Below, in pieces: positions 1,148 through 12,885 of a stretch of DNA of 64,000 bases. Source of the stretch: Streptosporangium brasiliense. Lineage in GTDB: Bacteria; Actinomycetota; Actinomycetes; Streptosporangiales; Streptosporangiaceae. Under the pieces are notes generated by a model. That model was not told the DNA's origin. It saw only the letters and a list, made by a program, of their open reading frames with translations, and searched no databases. The stretch lies in assembly GCF_030811595.1 (NCBI RefSeq), contig NZ_JAUSRB010000002.1, positions 6,634,001-6,698,000 on the forward strand, in the 5' to 3' direction. How positions within the stretch are numbered: position 1 is the stretch's first letter; every line of letters starts with the position of its first letter. Made by a program: the position numbers and the translations under genes.

Positions 1148-1198
1148 CGCCCCCGCCCGGACGCCGGGGGCGAGCCGCCGCAGGTCGTCCAGGCCTCC

Positions 1199-1227
1199 GG
1201 GGAGGATCGGACCGGATTTTGGCGCTA
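1199..1227 (+). repeat. left terminal inverted repeat of the Tn3-family element
   Basis: Begins GGGGAGGATCGGACCGGATT, the GGGG start typical of Tn3 ends. It matches the reverse complement of 9657-9685 at 26 of 29 positions. Three of the next bases outward also match because of an AGGCCT palindrome. Confidence 0.75.
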
Positions 1228-1299
1228 GAAAGACGATCTTGACGACGATTCGGTGACGACGGCTGTTTGCCCTGGTTGAGCGCCCTAGCGTGCCTGCTC

Positions 1300-4200
1300 A
1301 TGCCTGTGGATTTCCTCTCGAATGAGCAAGTAGCCCGTTATCGCCGGTTCCGGCCTGAGGTGTCGGTGGCCGAGCTCGAGCAGTTCTTCCGGCTGGATGC
1401 CAAGGCGCTGGAGGCGCTGGCGGGTAAGCGCCGCCCGGCGACGAAGCTAGGGTGGGCGGTGCAGTGGGGCACCGTGCGGATGCTCGGCACCTTCCTGACC
1501 GAAGATCCCCTGGACGTGCCCGGGGAGGTGCTGGCGTTCGTCGCCGAGCAGCTCGACGTCGACCCGGCGTGCGCGCCGGAGTACCTGACCCGGCCGAAGA
1601 CCGCATATGAGCATGCCTGGGAGATCCGGGACCTGCTGGAGCTGTCGGAGTTCTCCAAACGGGAGCAGGAGGTCCGCGACTACCTGGCCGCCCGGGTGTG
1701 GTCGACGGTCGAAGGGCCGCGAGCGTTGTTCGACCGCGCCGTGGTGCACATGCTGCGCGAGGGCATTCTGCTGCCCGCGGGGATCACCACGCTGACCCGG
1801 CTGATCAGCGAGGTTCGCCGGGCTGAGCACGCCCGGTTGTATCGCACGCTGGCCGAGCGCGCCGGCCCGGAGCTGCGGGTGAGGCTGGCCGAGCTGCTGC
1901 AGGTGCCTGCCGATCGGCGGGTCTCGGAGCTGGAGCGGCTGCGCACCGCGCCGACGCGGGCTTCGGGCCGGGTGATGGTGGCGGAGTTGCACCGGGTGGC
2001 CGAGATCGGCGGGCTGGGCGCTGGGGCAGTGCGGGTGGAGCCGGTGCCGGCGGTGAAGCTGTCGGCGCTGGCCCGGTATGGGCTGGTTTCCAAGGCGCCG
2101 ACGTTGCGGGATCTGGAAGGCGATCGGCAGGCGGCCACGCTGCTGGCCACCGTGCGGCACCTGGAGACCTCGTCGGTCGACGACGCCCTGGACGTGCTGG
2201 ACCTGCTGATCACCTCGAACCTGCTGGCCAGGGCAGAGCGGGCGGGTAAGGCCGAGCAACTGCGCACGTTCCCGAAGCTGCGCAAGGCAGCGCGGACGAT
2301 GGCCTCGGCGGTGGAGGTGCTGATGTCGGCGCCGGAGGCGACCGAGGATCGGCTGGTGTCGCTGGTGGAGGTGTGGAAGGCGATCGAGGAGGTGGTGCCG
2401 CGCGAGAAGCTGGCCTCGGCGGTGGAGACGGTCGCGGCCTTCGTGCCCACGACCGACGATGACGCGGCCGCCGAATGGCGGGCCGAGCTGGTCAAGCGTT
2501 ACCGCACGGTGCAGGGCTTCATCGAGCTGCTGCTGGAGGTGATCCGGTTCCGCGCGGTGGAGGCCGGCACCGCGGTGCTGGCGATGGTGCGCGCCGCGGC
2601 GGCGATGGCCAAGAGCCGCCGCCGCTACGGTCCCGGCGACATCACCGCGCACGAGACGCTGATCACTGGGTCGTGGCGGCCGCTGGTCTACCGCAACCCC
2701 GACGTCGCGGAGGGGCAGATCGACAAGGCCGCGTTCGTGCTGTGCGCGATCATGCACCTGCACCACGCGCTGCGCCGGCGCGATGTGTTCGCCGAAGGGT
2801 CCGAGCGGTGGAGCGATCCGCGCGCCCGGCTGCTGGACGGGGCGGCGTGGCAGGAGGCGCGGCCGCGCATCCTCACCTCGCTGGAGCTGGAGGTCGAACC
2901 GGCCGGGCATCTGGCCGAGCTCGCCGGCGCGCTGGAGGGCGCGTATGCGCGGGTGCTGGACGGGCTCGGCGCCAACACCGCGGTGCAGTTCGTCGGCGGC
3001 CGTCTGCAGTTGGAGAAGCTCGGCGCGGCCGAGGAGCCGCCGCTGATGAAGGAGCTGCGCTCCCTGGTCGATGACATGCTGCCCCGGCTGGACTTCCCCG
3101 AATTGCTGCTGGAGGTCTTCGACCGCACCGGGCTGCCGTCGGACTTCATCCACATCTCCGGCGCCGATCCATCGATGGAGGACTTCGGCGTCAGCCTGGC
3201 TGCGCTGATCGTGGCCGAGGCGTGCAACGTCGGCCTGGTGCCGATCGAGAAACCGAACGTGCCCGCGCTGACCCGGGCCCGGCTGCTGCAGGTGGATCAG
3301 GGTTACCTGCGCGGCGCGACGATCGCGGCGGCCAATGCCCGCCTGATCGCCGCCCAGGCGGAGCTGGACATCGTCGCCTGCTGGGGCGGCGGGCACATCG
3401 CTTCGGCCGACGGGCTGCGCTTCGTGGTGCCGGTGCAGAACTTGCACACCGGCCACAACCCCGCCTACTGGGGCAGGCAGCGCGGCGCGACCTGGCTGAA
3501 CGTGGTCAACGACCAGGTGATGGGTATCGGCGGGCTGGTGGTGCCCGGCACCCTGCGCGACTCGCTGTTCATCCTGGACGCCATCCACAACCTCGACGGC
3601 GGGCCCAAGCCGGAGACGGTGGTCACCGACACCGCCAGCTACTCCGACATCGTCTCGGGACTGTTCGCGATCTGCGGCTACCAGTTCTCCCCGCGCATCG
3701 CCGACCTGGCCGACACCCGGCTGTGGCGCACCAACACCCGGGCCGTCTACGGGCCGCTGGAGCACATGTCCCGCCACACCGTCCGGCTGGACAAGATCCG
3801 CGCGCACTGGGGCGACATGCTCCGGGTGGCCGGCTCGCTGACGATGGGCACGGTGCGCGCCTACGACCTGATCCGGATGCTGTCGGCCGATGGCCGCACC
3901 ACCGGCTTGGGCGAGGCGTTCGCGCACTACGGTCGGATTTTCAAGACGCTGCACCTGCTGCAGTTCATCGCCGACGAAGGCTACCGCCGCATGATCGGCA
4001 CCCAGCTCAACGTCCAGGAAGCGCGCCACCGTCTCGCCCGGAAGATCGCCTTTGGCAACCGGGGGCAGTTGCGCCAGCGCTACCGCGAGGGCCTGGAGGA
4101 TCAGCTGGGCAGTCTGGGGTTGGCGTTGAACGCGGTCATCTGGTGGAACAGCCTGTATCTGGACGCGGCCGTCAAGCATCTGCGCGCCCAGGGCTTTCCT

Positions 4201-4338
4201 GTCACGGACGAGATGTGCGCGCACTTGTCGCCGATCCAGTACGAGCACATCAACTTCCTGGGCCGTTACGCCTTTTCTCACGCGGACGTGGCCGGCGGCC
4301 TGCGCCCCTTCCATGACGGCGGTCACGAGCGGAGCTGA
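1300..4338 (+). CDS. tnpA: Tn3 family transposase
   Basis: Carries out replicative transposition of the element. The 1,012-residue length is normal for TnpA. The N-terminal half is the DUF4158-type DNA-binding region (starts MPVDFLSNEQVARYRRF). The C-terminal half is the DDE domain: Asp704 in SADGLRF, Asp777 in VVTDTASYSD, and an acidic cluster near residue 930 (YREGLEDQ) where the family's Glu lies. The segments HTGHNPAYWGRQRGATWLN and NAVIWWNSLYLDAAV are also family-typical. The ATG at 1300 is preferred over a TTG 33 bases upstream because the protein then starts exactly as relatives do. No frameshift was seen. The gene lies 73 bases inside the left inverted end. Confidence 0.95.
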   Translation: MPVDFLSNEQVARYRRFRPEVSVAELEQFFRLDAKALEALAGKRRPATKLGWAVQWGTVRMLGTFLTEDPLDVPGEVLAFVAEQLDVDPACAPEYLTRPKTAYEHAWEIRDLLELSEFSKREQEVRDYLAARVWSTVEGPRALFDRAVVHMLREGILLPAGITTLTRLISEVRRAEHARLYRTLAERAGPELRVRLAELLQVPADRRVSELERLRTAPTRASGRVMVAELHRVAEIGGLGAGAVRVEPVPAVKLSALARYGLVSKAPTLRDLEGDRQAATLLATVRHLETSSVDDALDVLDLLITSNLLARAERAGKAEQLRTFPKLRKAARTMASAVEVLMSAPEATEDRLVSLVEVWKAIEEVVPREKLASAVETVAAFVPTTDDDAAAEWRAELVKRYRTVQGFIELLLEVIRFRAVEAGTAVLAMVRAAAAMAKSRRRYGPGDITAHETLITGSWRPLVYRNPDVAEGQIDKAAFVLCAIMHLHHALRRRDVFAEGSERWSDPRARLLDGAAWQEARPRILTSLELEVEPAGHLAELAGALEGAYARVLDGLGANTAVQFVGGRLQLEKLGAAEEPPLMKELRSLVDDMLPRLDFPELLLEVFDRTGLPSDFIHISGADPSMEDFGVSLAALIVAEACNVGLVPIEKPNVPALTRARLLQVDQGYLRGATIAAANARLIAAQAELDIVACWGGGHIASADGLRFVVPVQNLHTGHNPAYWGRQRGATWLNVVNDQVMGIGGLVVPGTLRDSLFILDAIHNLDGGPKPETVVTDTASYSDIVSGLFAICGYQFSPRIADLADTRLWRTNTRAVYGPLEHMSRHTVRLDKIRAHWGDMLRVAGSLTMGTVRAYDLIRMLSADGRTTGLGEAFAHYGRIFKTLHLLQFIADEGYRRMIGTQLNVQEARHRLARKIAFGNRGQLRQRYREGLEDQLGSLGLALNAVIWWNSLYLDAAVKHLRAQGFPVTDEMCAHLSPIQYEHINFLGRYAFSHADVAGGLRPFHDGGHERS

Positions 4339-4399
4339 CCCGGGTCGACATCGACGTGCGGGGGCGGCGTGGACCCGCGGTGGGCGTCACCCGGCCCGG

Positions 4400-4756
4400 T
4401 CAGTCGTGGCGGGGGAGGCCGGAGACCTCGTGGTCGGCGTGGAAGAGGGCCTCGTTGATGATGGCTCGGACGTGGGCGTCACGGGCTCGGTAGAGCACGC
4501 GGCGGCCGTCGCGCCGGGTCTGCACGAGACCGGCCAGGCGGAGTTTGGCCAGGTGCTGGGAGACCGATGGCCGGGCGACGCCGATGGCGGCCGACAGGCT
4601 GCTGACGTCGTACTCGCCGCTGGACAGCAGCCACATCAGGCGCAGCCGGGTGGCGTCGCTGAGCATCCGGAAGGCTTCGACAGCCGTGTCGACCTGCGCG
4701 CTTGTCGGTTGCTCTTGCGACTGTGACGCACCTGATTGATTGTCGCGTGCATACAT
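4400..4756 (-). CDS. ArsR/SmtB-family metal-sensing repressor (NmtR/CzrA-like)
   Basis: A 118-residue winged-helix repressor, transcribed away from the CDF exporter gene that starts 50 bases off. The recognition helix region reads ARPSVSQHLAKLRLAGLV. The last helix has Asp93, His95, His106 and His109, the D-x-H-x10-H-x2-H pattern of the alpha-5 metal site in NmtR and CzrA. Those proteins sense Ni/Co or Zn/Co and release DNA on binding. The arsenic-type cysteine pair ELCVC is absent. The start is set at the ATG giving MYARDNQ; a longer frame upstream would run into the promoter of the exporter. Role as the exporter's repressor is inferred from divergence and the metal site. Confidence 0.85.
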   Translation of the reverse strand: MYARDNQSGASQSQEQPTSAQVDTAVEAFRMLSDATRLRLMWLLSSGEYDVSSLSAAIGVARPSVSQHLAKLRLAGLVQTRRDGRRVLYRARDAHVRAIINEALFHADHEVSGLPRHD

Positions 4757-4769
4757 GACTACATATAAT
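4740..4769 (+). promoter_or_regulatory. sigma70-like promoter of the CDF exporter
   Basis: TTGTCG at 4740-4745, 18 bases, then a perfect TATAAT at 4764-4769, pointing at the exporter gene 37 bases on. It overlaps the arsR start codon, so the repressor can cover both promoters. Confidence 0.55.
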
Positions 4770-4806
4770 CCCGGCAATTTGGTCACATGCAAGCGAGAGG
4801 TACGCG

Positions 4807-5862
4807 ATGGCTGAGGTTGGTCCCCCACAGCACGGTCACGGCCATGGTCACGGACATGGGCATGGGCATGGGCACGAACAGGGCAGGCGGTTGCTGTTGA
4901 AGCTTCGCCACGTCATCACCCCGCACAGCCATGACAGCGCGGACAAGACCGACACCGCGCTGGAGTCCAGCAGCCGCGGCATGCGTGTCCTGGCCATCTC
5001 GTTCGCCGCACTGACGGTCACCGCCCTCGTACAGGCCGTCATCGTCGCGCTGTCCGGGTCGGTGGCGCTGCTGGGCGATACGCTGCACAACTTCGCTGAC
5101 GCGCTGACCGCGGTGCCGCTGGCGATCGCCTTCTCCCTGGGGCGGCGGGCGGCCACGCGCCGCTTCACCTACGGCTACGGCAGGGCGGAGGATCTGGCCG
5201 GGGTCGTCATCGTGCTGCTGATCGGCGCGTCGGCGGCGCTGGCCGGTTACGAGGCCGTCAAGCGGCTGATCAACCCGGCCGACATGCAGGCGCTGGGCCT
5301 GGTGGCCGCCGCCGGCGTGGTCGGGTTCCTCGGCAACGAGTGGGTCGCCCGTTACCGGATCAGAGTGGGGCGGGAGATCGGCTCGGCGGCGCTGGTGGCC
5401 GACGGTCTGCACGCCCGTACCGACGGCTTCACATCGCTGGCCGTGCTGCTGGGGGCTGGTGGGGCGGCGCTCGGGTTCCCGCTGGCCGACCCCATCGTGG
5501 GCTTGCTGATCACCGTGGCGATCTGCTTCGTGCTGCGCGATGCCGCCCGCGAGATCTACCACCGGCTGATGGACGCGGTCGCCCCCAAGCTGATCGCCCG
5601 GGGGGAGGAGATCCTGGCGGCGGTGCCCGGAGTGGAGCGGGTCGGGGCGGTACGGCTGCGCTGGGTCGGTCACGCGCTCCGGGCCGAGGTCGAGATCGGC
5701 GTGCGGCACGACGCCTCGCTCATCGAGGCGCACGCCGTGGCGGTGGAGGCCGAGCACCGGCTGATGCACGAGCTGCCGCGGCTACGTGCCGCGATGGTGC
5801 ATGCCGACCCGGACGGCCCGGCCGGTACCGATCACCACGCCGTCCTCCTCGCGCACCGATAA
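4807..5862 (+). CDS. cation diffusion facilitator metal exporter with His-rich N-terminus
   Basis: Membrane antiporter that expels divalent metal (Zn, Co or Ni). Residues 9-23 are eight His-Gly alternations that can bind metal, followed by HSH at 40-42. Six membrane spans follow. The two metal-binding motifs are His94-x3-Asp98 in HNFAD and His202-x3-Asp206 in HARTD, the H-x3-D pairs of zinc-type CDF proteins. The C-terminal ~80 residues form the cytoplasmic domain (AVPGVERVGAVRLRWVGHALRAEVEI). Length 351 residues is usual. It is paired with the divergent ArsR sensor and sits in the transposon cargo, so it is probably the resistance determinant. The exact metal cannot be fixed from sequence. 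Confidence 0.92.
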   Translation: MAEVGPPQHGHGHGHGHGHGHGHEQGRRLLLKLRHVITPHSHDSADKTDTALESSSRGMRVLAISFAALTVTALVQAVIVALSGSVALLGDTLHNFADALTAVPLAIAFSLGRRAATRRFTYGYGRAEDLAGVVIVLLIGASAALAGYEAVKRLINPADMQALGLVAAAGVVGFLGNEWVARYRIRVGREIGSAALVADGLHARTDGFTSLAVLLGAGGAALGFPLADPIVGLLITVAICFVLRDAAREIYHRLMDAVAPKLIARGEEILAAVPGVERVGAVRLRWVGHALRAEVEIGVRHDASLIEAHAVAVEAEHRLMHELPRLRAAMVHADPDGPAGTDHHAVLLAHR

Positions 5863-5932
5863 GACCAGGTAAGGGCTGTTTTGTCGGTCGCTTGTGCCAG
5901 GATGACGCGCTGGCGAGTCGGGGGGAGCGCGC

Positions 5933-7156
5933 ATGCTGAGATCTTTGCCGGTGGCGGCCAGGACGCTGGTGTGGGTGCGTGTCCTCAACGCGCTCGGCGC
6001 CTACGCCCTGTCGTTCCTGGCGGTGCTGACGGGCCCTGAGCTGGCCGCGGTGGCGCTGGCCTTGTTCGGGGTCACGGCGCTGATCTCGCGGTGGGTGGGG
6101 GCGTTCCTGCTCGATCGGTTCTCGCCGCGCACGGTGCTGGCCTCCGGGTTGGTGGCGACCGGTCTGTCGCTGGCCGGGCTCGCGCTGGCCCATGGCCAGG
6201 TGCAGGTGCTGGTGGCGATCGCGGTGGTGGGTCTGGCCTTCGAGGTGTACGAGCCGGCGTCGCAGGAGCTGCTGGCCCGGGCGAGTACGGGAGAGCGGCG
6301 GCATCACACGTACGCGGTGATGGGGGTGGCGCTGTCGGCGGCCGGGGCGGCGGCGGGGCTGCTGGCGGCGGGGCTGCTGCCGCTGGGAGTGCGCTGGCTG
6401 GTGGCCGCCGACGCGCTCACCTGCCTGGTGGCGGCGGTCGTCGCGGTGGCGTTTCTGCCCCGCGAGTCTGGCCGGGGCGGCGGTCGCGGTGAGCGTGGGC
6501 GAGCGGGTGGGCGGTGGCGGCCCCCGGTGGCGCTGATGCGGCTGACCGTGGCGGGCACCGCGTTCGCGGTCGGCTCCCTGGCGGTGATGATGTATCTGCC
6601 GCTGGCGCTGCTGGAGCGGGGCGCGCCGGCGTGGCTGCCGGGGCTGGGGCTCGCGGGCGCGGCGGTGCTGGCTCCGGTGGCCTTGTGGCCGTCCCGGCGG
6701 CTGCTGGCCGGGCGGTCGCATGTGGTGATCCTCGGCGTCGGCACGGTGCTGCTGGGGATGCTCGCGCTGGTCATGGCTGTCACGGCCAGTCCAGCGGTGA
6801 CGATCGGTGCTTACCTGGCCTGTACGGTGGCGAACACTGTGCTGCTGGGTCGCTGGCAGTCCGCCGTGGCCGACGCCGCGCCTGAAGCCGATCGGCCGCG
6901 CTGGTTCGCTTTCCAGGGATCGTCGTGGGGCGTGGCGCAGCCGGCCGTGCCGCCGCTGGCCGCGCTGGCCGGCACCACGGCCGGAGCCATGGGGGGCGGG
7001 CGCCTTCCTGGCAGCCGGCGTGGCCTTCCTGCTGGTGCCCTTCATGCTGCGCCGCATCGCCGCCTGACCTCGATCACGGCTGCGCCGCCAGCGCCCGCAC
7101 GCCAGGAACGACAGCGGCACGAAAGGCCGCCTCCAGCTCGGCCGCAGTGGCGCTGA
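5933..7156 (+). CDS. MFS transporter, frameshifted near its 3' end
   Basis: A major facilitator protein of about 378 residues in its natural form, with hydrophobic spans from residue 1 on and a charged central loop (SGRGGGRGERGRAGGRWR). Near the end the reading frame is thrown by one extra G in the run at 6991-6996. As read, the frame runs on to 7156, ending in a basic, proline-rich tail overlapping the next gene. One base less gives GAFLAAGVAFLLVPFMLRR and a stop at 7067, which looks like a real last membrane helix. GGGGGAG precedes the ATG. It lies 70 bases after the CDF gene, likely in one transcript. The substrate is unknown. Confidence 0.75.
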   Translation: MLRSLPVAARTLVWVRVLNALGAYALSFLAVLTGPELAAVALALFGVTALISRWVGAFLLDRFSPRTVLASGLVATGLSLAGLALAHGQVQVLVAIAVVGLAFEVYEPASQELLARASTGERRHHTYAVMGVALSAAGAAAGLLAAGLLPLGVRWLVAADALTCLVAAVVAVAFLPRESGRGGGRGERGRAGGRWRPPVALMRLTVAGTAFAVGSLAVMMYLPLALLERGAPAWLPGLGLAGAAVLAPVALWPSRRLLAGRSHVVILGVGTVLLGMLALVMAVTASPAVTIGAYLACTVANTVLLGRWQSAVADAAPEADRPRWFAFQGSSWGVAQPAVPPLAALAGTTAGAMGGGRLPGSRRGLPAGALHAAPHRRLTSITAAPPAPARQERQRHERPPPARPQWR

Positions 7157-7652
7157 TCTCCCCATCGACCCATTTGGCCAGCATGGCCATGAACGCCCCG
7201 ACGACGCAGGTGACGACCAAGTCCAACCGCGTGGATGCCCGCACGCCACGGGCGAGCAGTTCGTCACGGACGACTGCCTGCAGGACCTGTTCGCCGTGGG
7301 CCATCACGGCCCGGCCGCTGCGCCGGCCGAGCAGTGCCCGCACCAGGTCCCGCTGGTCGTGTACGTGCTCGAACATCGGCCTGGCGAAGGCGAACAGCGG
7401 GCCGTCGGCACTGGGCACCGCGTGCAGGAACGTCAGCTCATCCAGGTTGGCCAGCAGCACCGCCTGTTTGCTGTCGAAGTGCGCGTAGAAGGTCGAGCGG
7501 CCCACGTCGGCGCGGCGGATCAGGTCGCTGACGGTCACCTGGTCATAGCCCTTGTCCAGGATCAGCTCGATCAGGGCGCGCTGGATCGCCTGCCGGGTAC
7601 GGCGCACCCGCCGGTCGACGGTGCCCGCCGGCGGGCCGGAGTTCGTGGCCAC
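7074..7652 (-). CDS. TetR-family repressor
   Basis: 192 residues. The N-terminal helix-turn-helix is at about residues 15-62 (TRQAIQRALIELILDKGYDQVTVSDLIRRADVGRSTFYAHFDSK). The C-terminal ligand domain has no recognisable specificity. The start is a GTG (MATNSGPPAG). It is divergent from the methyltransferase gene, with a perfect dyad in the gap, so it probably controls that gene and itself. Its 3' end faces and, as read, overlaps the frameshifted MFS gene. Confidence 0.9.
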   Translation of the reverse strand: MATNSGPPAGTVDRRVRRTRQAIQRALIELILDKGYDQVTVSDLIRRADVGRSTFYAHFDSKQAVLLANLDELTFLHAVPSADGPLFAFARPMFEHVHDQRDLVRALLGRRSGRAVMAHGEQVLQAVVRDELLARGVRASTRLDLVVTCVVGAFMAMLAKWVDGEISATAAELEAAFRAAVVPGVRALAAQP

Positions 7653-7734
7653 TTCACCGCCTGGTGTTCAGTACCGCACAGTCGGGCGGCACATGCTTGT
7701 TGACCCGCCATGTTATCGGCCGCACCATACGTAA

Positions 7735-7751
7735 CCGAACAGGTTGTTCGG
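7735..7751. promoter_or_regulatory. candidate TetR operator
   Basis: Perfect dyad CCGAACA-ggt-TGTTCGG between the divergent TetR and methyltransferase genes. It ends inside the ribosome-binding site (GGAAGGAG) of the methyltransferase. Assignment to this TetR is inferred from position. Confidence 0.6.
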
Positions 7752-7764
7752 AAGGAGACATGGA

Positions 7765-8418
7765 ATGGGACTGGGCAGACTGCTGCATGCTCACGCAGAA
7801 CACGCGGATGCGGGTGGAACGATCGACCGCCCACGCGGCTACGAGGTCATGGCGGAGGTCGGCTTCCTCGGCCGGCGAAGGGAGACCTTCACCAGGCTGG
7901 CCGCGTTGTCCGGAGCGCGGCCGGGTGACCGCGTCGTCGACGTCGGCTGCGGCACCGGCTACCTGACCCGGATCATGGCTCGCCTCGTCGGCCCGGACGG
8001 ACAGGTGACGGGAGTGGACCCTTCCGCCGCGGTCGTCGAACACGCCCGGCGGCGCGCCGCCGCCAACTGTTCCTACCTCGTCGGCGAAGGCCAGGCGATG
8101 GACCTGCCCGACGCCTGTGCCGACGTGGTGGTCTCCAGCCTCGCGGTGCACCACATGCCGGCCGCCGCGCGCGGCACGGCCATCAGGGAGATGTTCCGCG
8201 TGCTGCGGCCCGGCGGGCGGCTGCTAATCGCCGAGTTCCGCCCGCCCGCCAATGCGCTGCTCGCCCACCTGGTCGCGGCGCTGACCGGGCCCGCGATGCG
8301 GCACAACGCGCACGACCTGCTCGGTGACCTCATCCCGCAGGCAGGTTTTCAGGTCCTGGATACGGGTGACCTGCCGGTGATGCTCTCCTATGTCCGAGCG
8401 CGCCGCCCGGCCGCTTAA
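7765..8418 (+). CDS. class I SAM-dependent methyltransferase
   Basis: 217 residues with the SAM-binding motif I VVDVGCGTGYLTRIMARLV, an acidic motif at VTGVDPSAAVVEHA, and the post-motif LAVHHM...EMFRVLRPGGRLLIAEF characteristic of UbiE/Coq5-like small-molecule methyltransferases. The chosen ATG has GGAAGGAG 7 bases upstream; a TTG start 21 bases earlier lies inside the dyad. The C-terminal VLDTGDLPVMLSYVRARRP is typical of the group. It is cargo of the transposon beside its own TetR regulator. The substrate is unknown. Methylation of a toxic compound or metal(loid) is possible, but no ArsM-type cysteine set is seen. Confidence 0.88.
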   Translation: MGLGRLLHAHAEHADAGGTIDRPRGYEVMAEVGFLGRRRETFTRLAALSGARPGDRVVDVGCGTGYLTRIMARLVGPDGQVTGVDPSAAVVEHARRRAAANCSYLVGEGQAMDLPDACADVVVSSLAVHHMPAAARGTAIREMFRVLRPGGRLLIAEFRPPANALLAHLVAALTGPAMRHNAHDLLGDLIPQAGFQVLDTGDLPVMLSYVRARRPAA

Positions 8419-8569
8419 GCGTCCAGGCGACCACCACTGGTTGATCATCATGACGAACCGCAGGGCGGCCGTCGAGCAGCACCCGCCGGTCCTCGTCCGC
8501 GACCGGGCACCGAGCAAGGCGCCGCCGAGGTGCTGCGGACGTGCGCCCGACCTCGTCACCGGGTAATGG

Positions 8570-9511
8570 TCAGGATCGGCGGCGCGCTGCCGGGTCTCGC
8601 CCCTCCTGCCAGCGCGCCAGCGCATCCGGCGACACGCGGGCATAGCGAGCCAGCGATGCCACCGACGTGTGCCCGGAGAAGGCCAGCAGGGTGGAGGTGT
8701 TGGCCCCGTCTTCGGCAGCGTGCGTCAGGGCACTATGACGCAACTGGTGCAGCGTCCACGGACCCGCCGGCAGCTCACGGGTGGCCTGCTCGAACAGCTC
8801 GGCGGCACGCCGGTAGGACAGCCGGGCCCGGCCGCTGCCCGGGTCTAGGTCGCCCGGAGGCAGGGGGACACGGGCGCGGCGGCCGGTGAGGAAGACCGGT
8901 CCGGCACGGCGGCCGTCCAGCAGGCGGGGCAGAAGGCGGGCGGTGGCTGTGCGCCAGACGATGACGTCGACCGCACCGCCCTTGCGCCGTACCCTGGCCC
9001 GCCGGTTACGCAAGTCGAGCTCATCGACATCCAGGGCCAAGACCTCCTCGGTCCGGGCCGCCGACTCATACAGCAGCCGCCACAGCGTCCGCTCACGCAG
9101 GGCCAGATTCGGGCGGGTCAGCAGCGCCTCGACATCAACACGGGCCAGTGCCCGGGTCCGGTCCGGGGTGCGGGGCCGACGGCGGATGCGGCGCAGCGGG
9201 TCACCCGCCAGCCAGCCCTGAACGCGCCACCAGGCGCAGACCGAGCCGAGCGCGTCCAGACGCGCGTTGGCCGTGCCCGCGGCCGAGCCGCCCCACCGAT
9301 CGGCGAACCACGCGGCCACGCGGTCCGCGCCGGCCTCCCCCTCCAACTCGGCAAGGGCGGCATGCTCGCCGAACTCGGCGGCCAGGGCCCGGACCGCGAC
9401 CGCGTAAGCGCGGGCCGTGTTCCGATTGGCGATGGTAGCCAGGAAGGCCTCCGCGGCCGTGCCGAGCCGGGGCACGCCCTCGCGGGCGTTGAGCCGGTGC
9501 ACGGCCGCCAC
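8570..9511 (-). CDS. tnpI: tyrosine recombinase (TnpI-type cointegrate resolvase)
   Basis: 313 residues, expected to resolve the cointegrates that Tn3 transposition produces. The N-terminal SAM-like core-binding domain covers about residues 16-105. The catalytic domain has Arg153 (AARTEEV), Lys177 (RRKGG), His255-x2-Arg258 (HQLRHS), His281 (SGHTSV) and the nucleophile Tyr290 (ARYARV). Its start lies 19 bases from the first of three TATCGCAGATA repeats, the likely internal resolution site. Unlike Tn4430, where tnpI and tnpA adjoin, here the recombinase is at the opposite end of the element from tnpA. An ordinary phage-type integrase is the alternative, but the context argues for TnpI. Confidence 0.85.
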   Translation of the reverse strand: MAAVHRLNAREGVPRLGTAAEAFLATIANRNTARAYAVAVRALAAEFGEHAALAELEGEAGADRVAAWFADRWGGSAAGTANARLDALGSVCAWWRVQGWLAGDPLRRIRRRPRTPDRTRALARVDVEALLTRPNLALRERTLWRLLYESAARTEEVLALDVDELDLRNRRARVRRKGGAVDVIVWRTATARLLPRLLDGRRAGPVFLTGRRARVPLPPGDLDPGSGRARLSYRRAAELFEQATRELPAGPWTLHQLRHSALTHAAEDGANTSTLLAFSGHTSVASLARYARVSPDALARWQEGRDPAARRRS

Positions 9512-9529
9512 GGAACCTCCTCAGATCGC

Positions 9530-9627
9530 TATCGCAGATAAGCGCCGGGAGCCACGGGTGCCACGGTGAGGTGTTCTCCCAGGACGGGATCCAAGTTATC
9601 GCAGATAATGTGCCCCTATCTGCGATA
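9530..9627. promoter_or_regulatory. internal resolution site of the TnpI-type recombinase
   Basis: Three copies of the 11-mer TATCGCAGATA: direct at 9530-9540 and 9597-9607, inverted at 9617-9627. The last two face each other across a 9-bp spacer and would be the crossover core; the first is an outlying accessory arm site. This repeats the inverted-core plus direct-repeat plan of the Tn4430 site. Confidence 0.7.
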
Positions 9628-9656
9628 GCAACACAAGATCACCGGCTGTCTTCGCC

Positions 9657-9685
9657 TACCGCCAAAATCCGATCCAATCCTCCCC
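9657..9685 (-). repeat. right terminal inverted repeat of the Tn3-family element
   Basis: Reverse complement begins GGGGAGGATTGGATCGGATT and matches the left end at 26 of 29 bases. It lies 30 bases beyond the resolution-site repeats and 26 bases before the stop codon of the next gene. Confidence 0.75.
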
Positions 9686-9710
9686 GAAGGCCTCCAGGGC
9701 ATGACGGCGT

Positions 9711-10889
9711 TCAGGCCGCTTCGGCGGGCATCGCGTAGGTCGCGCCGGCCCGTTTCCGGACCTCGTCCACCACCGGTGAGCTGGTGAACGCCGCCGACAC
9801 CGCGCTCAGCCAGGCCGTCTCCGCGCCGATGCTGGGTACCGAGGAGGTGCGCGCGGCGGGCGCCTGCGGCCAACTGTGCCCGGACCTCCGGGCCACCAGC
9901 GCGGCGGCGACCTCGGCGGCCGCCATGGTCGGCCCGTCCTCGGCGGCGCCGTGCCGGCAGGCCGACTCGCGCACCCAGTCCGCCAGTTCGGGTGGCACAT
10001 GCTGGCGCAGGGCCAGCAGTCCGTCCCGGATCTCGATCAGCTTGCGGTACAGCACGAACTCCGCGCCGCACCGGGCAGTCGGCGGCAGCGCGATCCTGGG
10101 CAGCGCGGCCACCAACGCCGACCACAGCGGCGTCACCGCGCGGACGTCGCGCCGGGCCGTCAGCCACCGCAGCGGCCGCTCCACCATTCCCTGCCAGGTG
10201 GTCACCACCGCGCCCGCGACCCACAACACCATTGCCACCAGCCCGATCATCCGGCTGGCCGGCAGGAAGTTGTCGCCGGGCAGGCCGGTCACCGACACCC
10301 AGAGCGTGGGAAGGCCGGAGTACAGGCCCCACACCACGGTCACCGCCGAGGCCGTCACGATCACCTGCAGTCCGGTGCGGAAGCTGCCGCGTGGGCACTG
10401 CCGGGCATGCCGGGTGAGCACCCGCATGAACATCGTGAGGCAGCCGACCGCGTATCCGACCAGCACCATCTGGTACCCGACGGTACCGAACCGCCAGTCG
10501 AAACCGGGAGTGTCCGACTGATCGACATGCAGCACCATGTCGACGAAGCACACCGCCATCAGCACCCAGCACAGCACCAGCGGCCACGACCGGGTGCGCG
10601 GTACGGGGGTCTGGGTGGCGCGGGCCAGCCGCATCAGGAAGTGCACGGCCAGCACCTGCAACGCGTTGCTCACCAGCCGGCACACCAGGGTCGCCGTAGG
10701 CGCCCCATGGGCGGACAGCAGTCGCACGGTCGGTTCGGCCGAGACCGTCAGCGCTGCCGCCATGCTCAGGAAGAACCCCAGCAGGTATCGCATCCCGGGG
10801 CTCAACGGGACGCGCCGCGCGGCGGCCAGCTTGCCTGCGCTGATCAGCACCAGCATCCCGGCCGCGAAATAGCTGATCACCTCAGTCAC
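9711..10889 (-). CDS. MAB_1171c family putative transporter (multi-pass membrane protein)
   Basis: 392 residues. The first ~240 form about seven membrane spans (ISYFAAGMLVLISAGKL, YLLGFFLSMAAALTV, WPLVLCWVLMAVCFVDMVL and others). The last ~150 are a soluble, DUF6545-like cytoplasmic region with the family's PLWSALVAALPRIAL and LYRKLIEIRDGLLALR motifs. The biochemical role of the family is not established; 'transporter' is only a database label. The GTG start overlaps the end of the metallopeptidase gene by 8 bases, so the two are translationally coupled. Recurrent association with XRE and ImmA/IrrE genes suggests a membrane sensor for the peptidase-repressor pair. That role is inference. Confidence 0.8.
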   Translation of the reverse strand: MTEVISYFAAGMLVLISAGKLAAARRVPLSPGMRYLLGFFLSMAAALTVSAEPTVRLLSAHGAPTATLVCRLVSNALQVLAVHFLMRLARATQTPVPRTRSWPLVLCWVLMAVCFVDMVLHVDQSDTPGFDWRFGTVGYQMVLVGYAVGCLTMFMRVLTRHARQCPRGSFRTGLQVIVTASAVTVVWGLYSGLPTLWVSVTGLPGDNFLPASRMIGLVAMVLWVAGAVVTTWQGMVERPLRWLTARRDVRAVTPLWSALVAALPRIALPPTARCGAEFVLYRKLIEIRDGLLALRQHVPPELADWVRESACRHGAAEDGPTMAAAEVAAALVARRSGHSWPQAPAARTSSVPSIGAETAWLSAVSAAFTSSPVVDEVRKRAGATYAMPAEAA

Positions 10890-11394
10890 CGGGGCCGAAC
10901 GCCGAGTGCAGACGTTCCAGCTCGCTGCTCACCGGTTCGGCGGGCACACCGCGGCGGGCCTTGTGCATGATCAGCGAAGCGACCATCTCCGCCTCCTGCT
11001 CCTGCCGTTCGGCGTAGGTGGTGCGGCCCAGCACCCGCCGTACGAGTTCGACCGGAAGGTTCGGCATGAGCACCGAGGAGACCGTCTCGTCCAGCCCGCC
11101 GGAGCCCGCGTGGCCGCACAAGAGGTGGCCCAGCTCGTGCATCAGGATGTGCTCCTGGTGCAGGGGGCTGGTGTCGGCGGTGTAGAAGACGTAGTCGGTC
11201 CGGTCGGTTGCCGCGAGCACGCCGCACGGCCTGCCGGGCTGTGCCGCCAGCGGGATCAGCTCGATGGGCCGACCTCTTCTGGCGGCGAGTCCGGCGACGA
11301 GCGTGGCGACGTCAAAGGGATCCGGTATATCCACAGTGGACACGATCTGCGCGCAATGTCGCCAGAGCGCGTTTCGCCGGTACCGCAACCTCAC
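10882..11394 (-). CDS. ImmA/IrrE family metallopeptidase
   Basis: 170 residues with the zinc-protease motif HELGH at residues 86-90 (ILMHELGHLLCGH) and a downstream Glu-rich helix (AERQEQEAEMVASLI) carrying the third ligand candidate. Family members such as ImmA cleave or inactivate an adjacent XRE repressor to induce its regulon. Here the GTG start overlaps the XRE stop by 4 bases, so the two are made together. The likely substrate is therefore the XRE protein. Cytoplasmic, with no signal peptide. The N-terminal part (IPDPFDVATLVAGLAARRGRPIELIPL) matches the usual family lead-in. Confidence 0.88.
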   Translation of the reverse strand: MRLRYRRNALWRHCAQIVSTVDIPDPFDVATLVAGLAARRGRPIELIPLAAQPGRPCGVLAATDRTDYVFYTADTSPLHQEHILMHELGHLLCGHAGSGGLDETVSSVLMPNLPVELVRRVLGRTTYAERQEQEAEMVASLIMHKARRGVPAEPVSSELERLHSAFGPGD

Positions 11395-11855
11395 TCCCCC
11401 GGTTTGCGACCGTGCGCCTCCCTGGCGCCGCCCCGCTGCGCCTCGCGGCGCTCAATGGCATCGATGATGTCGGCGACCGTGCCGAGGCCCTCCTCGGAGA
11501 GGTTGACCGCACGCAGCGCCACATCACGCACCGCGCTGTTGCGCAACGCACCGAGCAGCTCCAACTCCTTGGCGATCACCGCGCCCTGTTCGTCGTCGAA
11601 GAAGTAGGCGGGTGGCACCTGGAAGAAGGCGGCGAGGGCCTCCAGGTGCCGCTTGGTCGGGTTGTCCCTGCGGCCGGTGCGGAGCTGCCAGAGGTAGGTC
11701 GCGGAGAAGGTCTCACCGGTGCTCTCCCGGCAGGCCTTGGCCACCTCCTCGTGGCTGTGCTGCTCGCCGTTGGGGCGACGGACCACCTGGAACAGGTGGT
11801 CGATCCGGTCGCTGAGCGTGCCGGCCACCGGTGCGCGGTCCTGCTCGTCGGTCAT
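11391..11855 (-). CDS. XRE-family transcriptional regulator
   Basis: 154 residues. The helix-turn-helix lies at about residues 30-80 (HSHEEVAKACRESTGETFSATYLWQLRTGRRDNPTKRHLEALAAFF). It is of the long-spaced type seen in actinomycete XRE proteins that partner ImmA/IrrE peptidases. The ATG giving MTDEQDRAP has AGAGG 6 bases upstream and is preferred to a start 60 bases earlier that would lie inside the operator dyad. It is divergent from two secreted mini-protein genes and probably represses them and its own operon through the dyad at 11884-11928. The C-terminal helix region (LELLGALRNSAVRDVALRAVNLSEEGL) is family-typical. Confidence 0.85.
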   Translation of the reverse strand: MTDEQDRAPVAGTLSDRIDHLFQVVRRPNGEQHSHEEVAKACRESTGETFSATYLWQLRTGRRDNPTKRHLEALAAFFQVPPAYFFDDEQGAVIAKELELLGALRNSAVRDVALRAVNLSEEGLGTVADIIDAIERREAQRGGAREAHGRKPGE

Positions 11856-11883
11856 CTGCGCCTCTGGAGGATAGGCGGCGACA

Positions 11884-11928
11884 TCAACTGATATGAATGA
11901 TCGAGAGGAGGTCATTCATATCAGTTGA
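11884..11928. promoter_or_regulatory. 17-bp-arm dyad, candidate XRE operator
   Basis: Perfect inverted repeat TCAACTGATATGAATGA at 11884-11900 and its complement at 11912-11928, separated by 11 bases. A related half-site, AGCTGAGATGAATGA (two mismatches), lies at 11970-11984 just before the first secreted gene. The dyad is unusually AT-rich for this genome and sits between the divergent XRE and secreted genes. Confidence 0.75.
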
Positions 11929-11997
11929 CATCACCGTGGTGCGTGACTAGCTTGTGTCTTGATCATATTAGCTGAGATGAATGAGAAGGGGGGGTGG

Positions 11998-12267
11998 ATG
12001 AAGAAGATGCTGGGTGCCGCCGTACTGGCCGCCGCCGCGATCGCGATCGCGGCGGGACCGGCGTCGGCGGAAGTCGGCTCGTTCACCGCGACCGCCATGG
12101 ACACGAGCCATAGCGGCGCGGTGAGCAGAGCGGTGAACTACGCCTACGGCAAGGCGGCCGTGGCCGGATTCCTGAGCTCGCAGTGCTACGTGAGCAGCAC
12201 CAGTGCGAGGGCCAGCGACATCCCGGGCAGCTGGTTCGGCACCGCGACGGTGTACTGCCAGCGCTGA
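11998..12267 (+). CDS. small secreted two-cysteine protein, copy 1
   Basis: 89 residues. The signal peptide MKKMLGAAVLAAAAIAIA ends at an AxA site near residue 23 (GPASAE), leaving a mature part of about 65 residues. That part has only two cysteines (SSQCYVSS and TVYCQR), probably one disulfide. A G-rich ribosome site precedes the ATG; a longer frame upstream would place coding sequence over the half-operator. The pattern GF-x3-QC ... WFGTATVYC-x-R is shared with the next gene, so the two are tandem paralogs. No known family recognised. Possible roles are secreted signal, toxin or inhibitor; no function can be assigned. Confidence 0.7.
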   Translation: MKKMLGAAVLAAAAIAIAAGPASAEVGSFTATAMDTSHSGAVSRAVNYAYGKAAVAGFLSSQCYVSSTSARASDIPGSWFGTATVYCQR

Positions 12268-12308
12268 ACCCTGGTACCGCAACCACACGACAAAAGGGGT
12301 CTACAGGA

Positions 12309-12617
12309 ATGCGTTCGATCGTTGCTCGCGGTTTCGTCGCCGCGATGATCACCGGCTTCACTGTCCTCGCTCCGGTCGCGGCGTTCGCCGCTCCGGCCGC
12401 GACGGGGCAGGCGAGCGTGCTCGAGGAGCGCGGCTTCAACGGCATGGCCCTCGAGAACAGCCCCAAGGAGGCCAAGCGCGAGGCGGAGAAGGACGCCCGC
12501 CGTCAGGCGCTGATCTCGGGCTTCAGCAACGAGCAGTGCGTGCTGCTGTTCGCCGACTCGTCCCGGCTCGGGCCGGGCTACTACTGGGGCAGTGCCTCCA
12601 TCCGCTGTACCCGCTGA
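12309..12617 (+). CDS. small secreted two-cysteine protein, copy 2
   Basis: 102 residues with a signal peptide (MRSIVARGFVAAMITGFTVL, cleavage near AFAAPA). The mature part carries a charged linker (NSPKEAKREAEKDARRQ) and ends ISGFSNEQCVLLFADSS...YYWGSASIRCTR, matching the last 45 residues of the preceding protein in layout and both cysteines. It is 41 bases downstream of copy 1, probably co-transcribed, and followed by a strong hairpin. The charged insertion replaces the serine- and alanine-rich section of copy 1. Function unknown. Confidence 0.7.
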   Translation: MRSIVARGFVAAMITGFTVLAPVAAFAAPAATGQASVLEERGFNGMALENSPKEAKREAEKDARRQALISGFSNEQCVLLFADSSRLGPGYYWGSASIRCTR

Positions 12618-12675
12618 TACCGGCGGTCACGGTTGATACCGGCGGTCGCGCCCGTGCCGCGCCGCTGACCACCGT

Positions 12676-12717
12676 CAATCGCCCGGAGGAGGCCCCCGGC
12701 CCGCCTCCGGGCGATTG
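12676..12717 (+). terminator. hairpin after the secreted mini-protein genes
   Basis: Perfect 14-bp arms (CAATCGCCCGGAGG and complement) with a 14-base loop, 59 bases after the second secreted gene. No T-tract. Confidence 0.7.
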
Positions 12718-12727
12718 CCCTGTCTGC

Positions 12728-12885
12728 TCACGGCGTACCGGCGGCAACGATCGCGTCGGGGACGCCGTACGCAGCCGTCTCCGCCCCGAGCTCCCGCCAG
12801 GGCGGCAGCCCCACCGGCGGCATCACGCGTCCCAGCCGCTCGGCGAACCACCCGTAGTCGACGATCCCGGCCGTTCCGCCGGCCT
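12728..12885 (-). pseudogene. unidentified gene remnant (C-terminal fragment)
   Basis: This lies in the 330-base gap between the secreted pair and the TetR gene. The minus strand reads IVDYGWFAERLGRVMPPV then PPWRELGAETAAYGVPDAIV and a stop at 12728. Composition looks protein-like rather than random, but no start and no full domain are present. It may be the tail of a deleted enzyme gene, family not recognised. Nothing else was seen in the gap except the terminator. Confidence 0.3.

Follow-up and report, generated by a model that had tools for sequence, protein, structure and literature searches.

A conserved actinobacterial gene module of an EspR-family regulator, an M78 peptidase and a DUF6545 membrane protein, with candidate operators and exchangeable cargo

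According to the passages of PMC3315491 available to us, EspR of Mycobacterium tuberculosis is a positive controller of ESX-1, the main virulence secretion system of this organism, and a nucleoid-associated protein that bridges its sites and activates espACD. EspR without its last ten residues neither dimerises nor activates espACD, and the espR promoter holds CAGCAAA<16>TTTGCTC; the signal controlling EspR is not stated in these passages. For M78 (ImmA/IrrE-type) metallopeptidases, excerpts of two further papers state that PprI cuts DdrO between Leu108 and Arg109 (PMC4374696) and report that ImmA is needed for the inactivation of ImmR (PMC2701414). Here we analyse a stretch of 64,000 nt, the window, from the forward strand of the 10.5-Mb genome of Streptosporangium brasiliense (assembly GCF_030811595.1, contig NZ_JAUSRB010000002.1, 6,634,001-6,698,000). 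It contains a cassette of about 3.0 kb, comprising five genes and a hairpin (9704..12711), in which an EspR-family regulator, an M78 peptidase and a DUF6545 membrane protein are encoded divergently from two secreted proteins. Comparison with related loci indicates that the three minus-strand genes are a conserved regulatory module, with the secreted genes as its likely target.

Gene families and limits of the cassette

The regulator gene is located at 11391..11855 on the minus strand. A profile of 24 homologs of this 'XRE' protein matches M. tuberculosis EspR in a PDB search with E=4.6e-35 over profile positions 8-138 of 147, covering both domains. The next solved structure follows at E=2e-8, and no DdrO entry is found among the 14 PDB matches of the profile. 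The Pfam family HTH_31 scores 22.6 bits, below its cut-off of 27. On this homology the protein is an EspR-family member over its full length, with a helix-turn-helix and a C-terminal dimerisation domain. We chose the start ourselves: the longest frame opens at 11915, within the dyad described below, and ATG 11855 keeps the dyad outside the gene. The tree of XRE proteins is weakly resolved, with 25 of 63 inner branches open, and no claim is drawn from it.

The regulator gene overlaps by 4 bp with the M78 peptidase gene (10882..11394, minus strand), which in turn overlaps by 8 bp with the DUF6545/MAB_1171c-family membrane protein gene (9711..10889, minus strand). This arrangement, proposed in an earlier, sequence-only reading as XRE, ImmA/IrrE HELGH and MAB_1171c genes, is confirmed, with Pfam and NCBIfam supporting the latter two families. 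Peptidase_M78 is matched with 24.1 bits against a cut-off of 22, and the alignment shows the HELGH motif together with a conserved EQEAE stretch; within the HEXXH motif His86 and Glu87 are invariant and His90 is conserved in at least 90% of 28 sequences. The membrane protein exceeds the cut-offs of both DUF6545 (PF20182, Pfam; 114.5 bits versus 24.4) and MAB_1171c_fam (NF042915, NCBIfam; 163.7 versus 100). Its structure model consists of seven long helices, the seventh of which runs to residue 262 into a helical C-terminal domain, and most invariant alignment columns are found from residue 226 onward. The 50 PDB matches listed for it are G-protein-coupled receptors (GPCRs), GPCR-like designs, rhodopsins, some of them light-driven pumps, and one designed filament, all with E of at least 0.05 and none significant. 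Model and gene context suggest a receptor, and no sign of transport was found. A literature search on DUF6545 gave no match.

The two genes on the plus strand encode an 89-amino-acid (aa) precursor (secreted protein 1, 11998..12267) and a 102-aa precursor (secreted protein 2, 12309..12617), both with two cysteines and, by eye, ordinary signal peptides. As the sequence-only reading had it, they are paralogs diverging from the minus-strand genes: they are 35% identical over the aligned part and, at E<=1, match only each other in the genome. No Pfam family is found for either at E<=1. For mature secreted protein 1 a beta-alpha-beta-beta fold is modelled with high confidence, in which the last two strands carry the two cysteines, both invariant; fold matches are dodecin-like and weak (best E 0.2).

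The cassette is common to two other genomes of the genus. Blastn aligns 9704-12711 with one of them (locus L041) at 90.7% DNA identity and 9693-12755 with the other (L042) at 92.1%. Nothing similar adjoins the block in either, and the sole other match in the window, of 69% over 182 bp, is 8.5 kb off. The block begins just past the DUF6545 stop codon and finishes at the hairpin. One of the genomes is Streptosporangium carneum, and the flank of its cassette has a 71% DNA match in the genome of S. brasiliense itself, where the match and the cassette are about 65 kb apart. These limits, together with the distant flank match, indicate that the block is a single unit of movement or inheritance. Between the cassettes secreted protein 2 is 93-94% identical to the S. 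brasiliense copy and thus as conserved as the regulators; secreted protein 1 is only 74-76% identical, DUF6545 87-88%. Searches of the cassette proteins with Pfam, NCBIfam and a phage-family scan found no integrase, phage structural gene or known toxin family.

The 42-nt hairpin at the cassette end (12676..12717, plus strand) has a folding energy of -35.4 kcal/mol (z -5.3), and none of 200 shuffles is equally stable. The sequence-only reading had called it a terminator. The strong hairpin is a likely terminator, but it has no T-run, and a strict consensus (sigma-70) scan of 11800-12800 reports no terminator and likewise no promoter. Both 'terminator' and the 'promoter' described below are therefore readings of the sequence.

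Next to the cassette we observed a Tn3-like element (1191-9693 of the window) bounded by 38-nt inverted repeats (1191-1228 and 9656-9693, 89%). Its genes encode a Tn3 transposase, an ArsR regulator, a cation-efflux protein, a major facilitator superfamily protein, a TetR regulator, a methyltransferase and a tyrosine recombinase. The recombinase adjoins TATCGCAGATA repeats (9530, 9597 and, reversed, 9617), an arrangement that we take to resemble TnpI/IRS resolution. A clean target-site duplication was not seen by eye at the ends of the element. A location of the cassette inside this element was considered and rejected, as the 38-nt repeats end directly before the cassette.

Candidate operators and promoter

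Between the two transcription units lies a strong dyad, noted already in the sequence-only reading, with 25-nt arms that are 88% complementary and 11 nt apart. It is a pair of inverted EspR-like half-sites and likely the operator of the module. We designate the half-sites candidate operator O1 (11883..11900, plus strand, core 14-mer 11886-11899) and, inverted, candidate operator O2 (11912..11931, minus strand, core 11913-11926). A third, direct copy, 83% like the first, forms candidate operator O3 (11967..11984, plus strand, core 11970-11983). The candidate promoter of the secreted genes (11925..11953, plus strand) reads TTGACA (11925-11930), a 17-bp spacer and TAGCTT (11948-11953); O2 overlaps the -35 box at its first two bases, and the core of O3 starts 16 bp after the -10 box. 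The inverted pair reads CTGATATGAA<17>TTCATATCAG, i.e. AA<17>TT. The half-site pattern ARCTGANATGAATG has exactly three matches in the genome, all of them in this intergenic region.

We then compared these sites with those of related loci, numbered here with L. Loci L041-L080 are mostly best XRE matches and L134-L193 mostly best M78 matches, so that counts on them are not random samples. In a held-out test, a matrix derived only from the three loci of the same genus was applied to 40 XRE genes in 38 other loci, with XRE identities of 35-70%. Upstream of 17 of the 40 genes there is a site above 12 bits; among the controls such a site is present in 3.3% of 800 dinucleotide shuffles and, for other genes, in 9 of 219 upstream regions. 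A second matrix, which was scored on its own training loci, finds any site in 72% of 43 as opposed to 5.6% of 126 control stretches; it was used for pair spacing, for the signal-peptide test and for operator recognition beyond the family. Of 22 inverted pairs, 17 show a start-to-start spacing of 26-29 bp (spacing without shuffle control). By eye, the order of AGTTGAC, a -10-like stretch and a AACTSAGATNAA-like site is seen in L048, L049, L050, L051, L053, L054, L055 and L058.

Spread of the module and its changing cargo

Within the order, XRE relatives extend over 31 of 70 genera and 130 of 345 genomes; within the class, the M78 profile reaches 28 of 121 genera, with matches in 69 of 325 genomes. 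The triad, M78 with DUF6545 directly downstream and an XRE gene no more than 4.5 kb away, is seen at 28 of the 40 family loci selected through XRE and at 43 of the 60 class loci selected through M78; considered alone, an XRE gene is found within 4.5 kb of M78 in 52 of the 60 class-level loci. Protein distances within the triad are correlated (r=0.73 for XRE-M78, 0.72 for XRE-DUF6545 and 0.84 for M78-DUF6545, with none of 2000 permutations as high) over the 66 of 101 loci in which all three proteins are present and long enough, among them one of the three mycobacterial loci.

The facing genes differ. A secreted phospholipase A2 is encoded in L048 (Pfam) and in L053 and L055 (by eye), and other secreted proteins in L049, L050, L051, L054, L059 and L066, while the facing gene lacks a signal peptide in L052, L058 and L061. 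Tandem peptides of 62-71 aa face the XRE gene in L045 and L046 and show a weak linaridin match (E=0.017, below cut-off). Where both module and operator are present, the facing gene carries a signal peptide in 12 of 16 loci; at other XRE loci this is so in 2 of 14, and among background genes in 49 of 252 (p=6.5e-6, Fisher test of the module and operator loci versus background). After homologous cargo is collapsed by hand the count for the module and operator loci is 7 of 11 (binomial p=0.0017). Two of the 43 XRE genes of this test (L046, L060) were missed by the gene caller. As the same module stands beside differing facing genes, EspR-like protein, M78 and DUF6545 form a widespread module whose cargo is exchangeable and often exported.

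The secreted pair can likewise be followed independently of the module. In the order sample 3 of 345 genomes, all of the same genus, carry secreted protein 1, and a contig scan for the secreted family confirmed at least one locus. The profile of the pair matches 3 of 394 genomes of the class, namely S. brasiliense and two genomes of another family, where the genes are again in tandem and in the same order. In the 14-kb stretches from these two genomes single-sequence tblastn and profile searches (E<=1) revealed no XRE, M78 or DUF6545 gene, and no operator pair was seen. A fixed tie of the secreted pair to the module is thereby rejected, and the pair is best regarded as exchangeable cargo. The sequence-only reading had proposed a five-gene system and had made it depend on conservation of the secreted genes with the other three. 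Such conservation is seen for the cassette in its three genomes, but the module faces other genes at other loci, and the pair occurs without it, so that a five-gene system is not supported in general. The earlier reading was probably right about the switch and too narrow about the target, and it missed both the EspR relationship and the M78 gene adjoining espR in many mycobacteria.

Literature searches gave no match joining ImmA/IrrE and XRE in Streptomyces, nor M78, XRE and a secreted metalloprotease in actinobacteria. The module marks exported products, i.e. secreted enzymes, linaridin-like peptides and Cys-containing proteins, and can therefore be used to find them.

Some loci deserve separate mention. 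In L045 (5755-6955) and L046 (3849-4897) the tandem short peptides (MSTLxD.., M[TP]LLAEK..) lie under an operator copy and are followed by a hydrolase and then, by eye, by methyltransferase and transporter genes; we regard this as a candidate linaridin-like cluster controlled by the module. On a plasmid of Streptomyces clavuligerus (L206, NZ_CP065235.1 44692-55465) genes for a cellulose-binding protein, an LxmA-leader RiPP (ribosomally synthesised and post-translationally modified peptide), M78 and MAB_1171c stand in a row; here the M78 gene is annotated 'ParH-like', and an EspR-like gene (8844-9287 of the locus) follows about 3 kb further on the same strand. In L141 and L158 the triad is divergent from genes for large MmpL-like membrane proteins, as judged by eye.

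EspR itself is the product of the XRE gene in three mycobacterial loci (L191, L192 and L193). In the PDB the protein of L191 matches EspR with E=5e-68 and is about 82% identical to it as counted from the alignment. In all three, M78 and DUF6545 genes overlapping by 4 bp stand tail to tail with espR, DUF6545 lying between M78 and espR. Among 128 sampled genomes of one mycobacterial genus EspR is present in 126, and 71 together contain 72 copies of a close M78 ortholog. Sixty-nine of the 72 copies are located within 4 kb of espR, all convergent, with DUF6545 read in the three loci only; two others have espR on another contig, and the last belongs to a 63%-complete genome with no EspR match. The close ortholog was not found in 57 of the 128 genomes, two of which gave a distant M78 match. 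In M. tuberculosis espR is presumably followed directly by Rv3850, and the M78/DUF6545 pair would then be missing there. Tentatively, and somewhat short of probable, EspR-family regulators may be part of a so far unrecognised signalling system of actinobacteria: the seven-helix receptor DUF6545 would switch the M78 protease, and this would remove the EspR-like regulator, often so that exported products are released; M. tuberculosis EspR would be a member by descent.

Proposed mechanism, alternatives and known systems

With the M78 precedents PprI-DdrO and ImmA-ImmR, the simplest mechanism is a sequence of receptor, protease, repressor loss and cargo expression. We infer the following order of events. 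The EspR-family protein would bind O1, O2 and O3 between the two transcription units, occupy the promoter of the secreted genes at its -35 box and start region, and repress these genes and probably its own operon. DUF6545 would sense something at the membrane and activate M78 via its long seventh helix and C-terminal domain, upon which M78 would cut the C-terminal dimerisation domain of the EspR-like repressor; a stretch conserved among the XRE homologs, LxALRDxxVR, is a tentative candidate for the cut site. With the operators vacated, the two small two-cysteine proteins would be made and exported by the general secretion route. We favour such a receptor-protease-repressor switch with its own exported cargo with moderate confidence. 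In its support we count the EspR homology over both domains, the restriction of exact sites to this region, their recurrence in the held-out test, the pair spacing and its likeness to the espR promoter, the conserved HEXXH residues, the triad and its correlated protein distances, the signal peptides of the facing genes, and the findings on truncated EspR and on PprI-DdrO.

Several observations weigh against this proposal. With up to two mismatches, ARCTGANATGAATG gives 57 genome matches compared with 13 for the backwards pattern, so that weaker sites may exist elsewhere in the genome. The loci of the held-out operator test include near relatives, and sites above 10 bits fade with XRE identity, from 3 of 5 genes (60-80%) and 11 of 16 (50-60%) to 3 of 12 (45-50%) and 2 of 7 (30-45%). 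L043 and L044, whose XRE proteins are 67-70% identical, have the module but neither an operator match nor a facing gene. Of the 40 family loci selected through XRE, 12 do not have the full triad, some of these being on short contigs. The correlation of protein distances is confounded with species kinship. The signal-peptide predictor is crude and our own, and the 16 loci count the S. brasiliense-type cargo three times. At loci beyond the family the cargo is a mixture, most of it unsecreted by eye, and the operator is mostly unrecognised. Finally, a sequence search of the PDB found no relative of the M78 protein.

The excess of weaker matches over the control (57 versus 13) also fits a different role of the regulator. 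The EspR-like protein might act as an activator or architectural protein that bridges O1/O2 and O3, in which case M78 would switch expression off and not on. The three sites lie to either side of the promoter, which would permit a loop, and M. tuberculosis EspR itself is described in passages of PMC3315491 as nucleoid-associated, site-bridging and espACD-activating. In contrast, O2 on the -35 box and the O3 core 16 bp past the -10 box are at positions expected for repression, and exact sites are local only. We consider this role unlikely, if the most plausible of the alternatives.

A feedback loop with the secreted proteins as ligand of DUF6545 had been raised in the sequence-only reading. Pair and module are co-inherited in one cassette in three genomes, and the conservation of secreted protein 2 (93-94%) equals that of the regulators, but the identity of secreted protein 1 between cassettes (74-76%) falls below that of the putative receptor (87-88%). 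The module is also found beside unrelated cargo and the pair also without the module; this swapping of cargo makes the small proteins less likely as the signal, and we hold the loop to be distinctly improbable. Slightly less credible still is that DUF6545 is a transporter exporting the small proteins or importing a substrate. The family bears the name MAB_1171c putative transporter, and MAB_1171c is listed in the available part of PMC8707978 as a membrane transporter whose mutant forms about 50% less biofilm. The secreted proteins, however, carry ordinary signal peptides, the model is one seven-helix bundle with a C-terminal domain, and the 50 listed structure matches, none of them significant, are to GPCRs, GPCR-like designs, rhodopsins including light-driven pumps and a designed filament. 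A toxin-antitoxin or mobile-element immunity module of the Xre-COG2856 or ImmR-ImmA kind with the secreted genes as chance neighbours is very improbable: Xre-COG2856 pairs have been proposed as toxin-antitoxin-like systems (in the part of PMC2701414 available), M78 and XRE weakly match phage families and XRE weakly the regulator capH of the cyclic-oligonucleotide-based anti-phage signalling system (CBASS), but the cassette limits take in the secreted genes, no known toxin family is present among the five proteins (of which the secreted two belong to no family at all), the nearby tyrosine recombinase sits in the separate Tn3-like element, and within 9704-12711 there is no integrase or phage structural gene indicating membership of a phage or an integrative and conjugative element.

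The receptor-protease-repressor switch that we favour can be set beside four described systems. With IrrE/PprI-DdrO and ImmA-ImmR it shares an adjacent M78 peptidase and XRE regulator and local operators. The best PDB relatives of the cassette regulator, however, are EspR entries (E of about 1e-35) and not DdrO, a third conserved membrane gene is added, and the cargo consists of exported proteins, whereas theirs serves DNA repair or conjugation. In CBASS, CapH pairs with CapP; the cassette XRE protein weakly matches capH (21 bits, PADLOC), and among the five cassette proteins PADLOC gave no other match and none to a CBASS core gene. The cassette membrane protein scores above both curated cut-offs as a member of the MAB_1171c putative transporter family, and differs in that its model and gene context suggest a receptor.

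The fourth system is EspR (PDB 3r1f, 3qf3, 4ndw). The homology extends over the full length including the C-terminal dimerisation domain, and the half-sites are inverted in both, as AA<17>TT in the cassette and AA<16>TT at the espR promoter. The cassette core reads ARCTGANATGAATG and not TTTGC[TC][GA], and EspR reportedly binds hundreds of sites, as far as the passages of PMC3315491 go, whereas the exact sites of the cassette are three and local, with weaker ones possible. M78 and DUF6545 partners are not mentioned in the EspR passages available, and no publication joining EspR with an M78 protease is found among the matches listed. With M78 beside espR in 69 of 128 genomes, DUF6545 between the two in the three loci read and an operon made up of the same families in other members of the class, the module offers a concrete candidate for the control of EspR.

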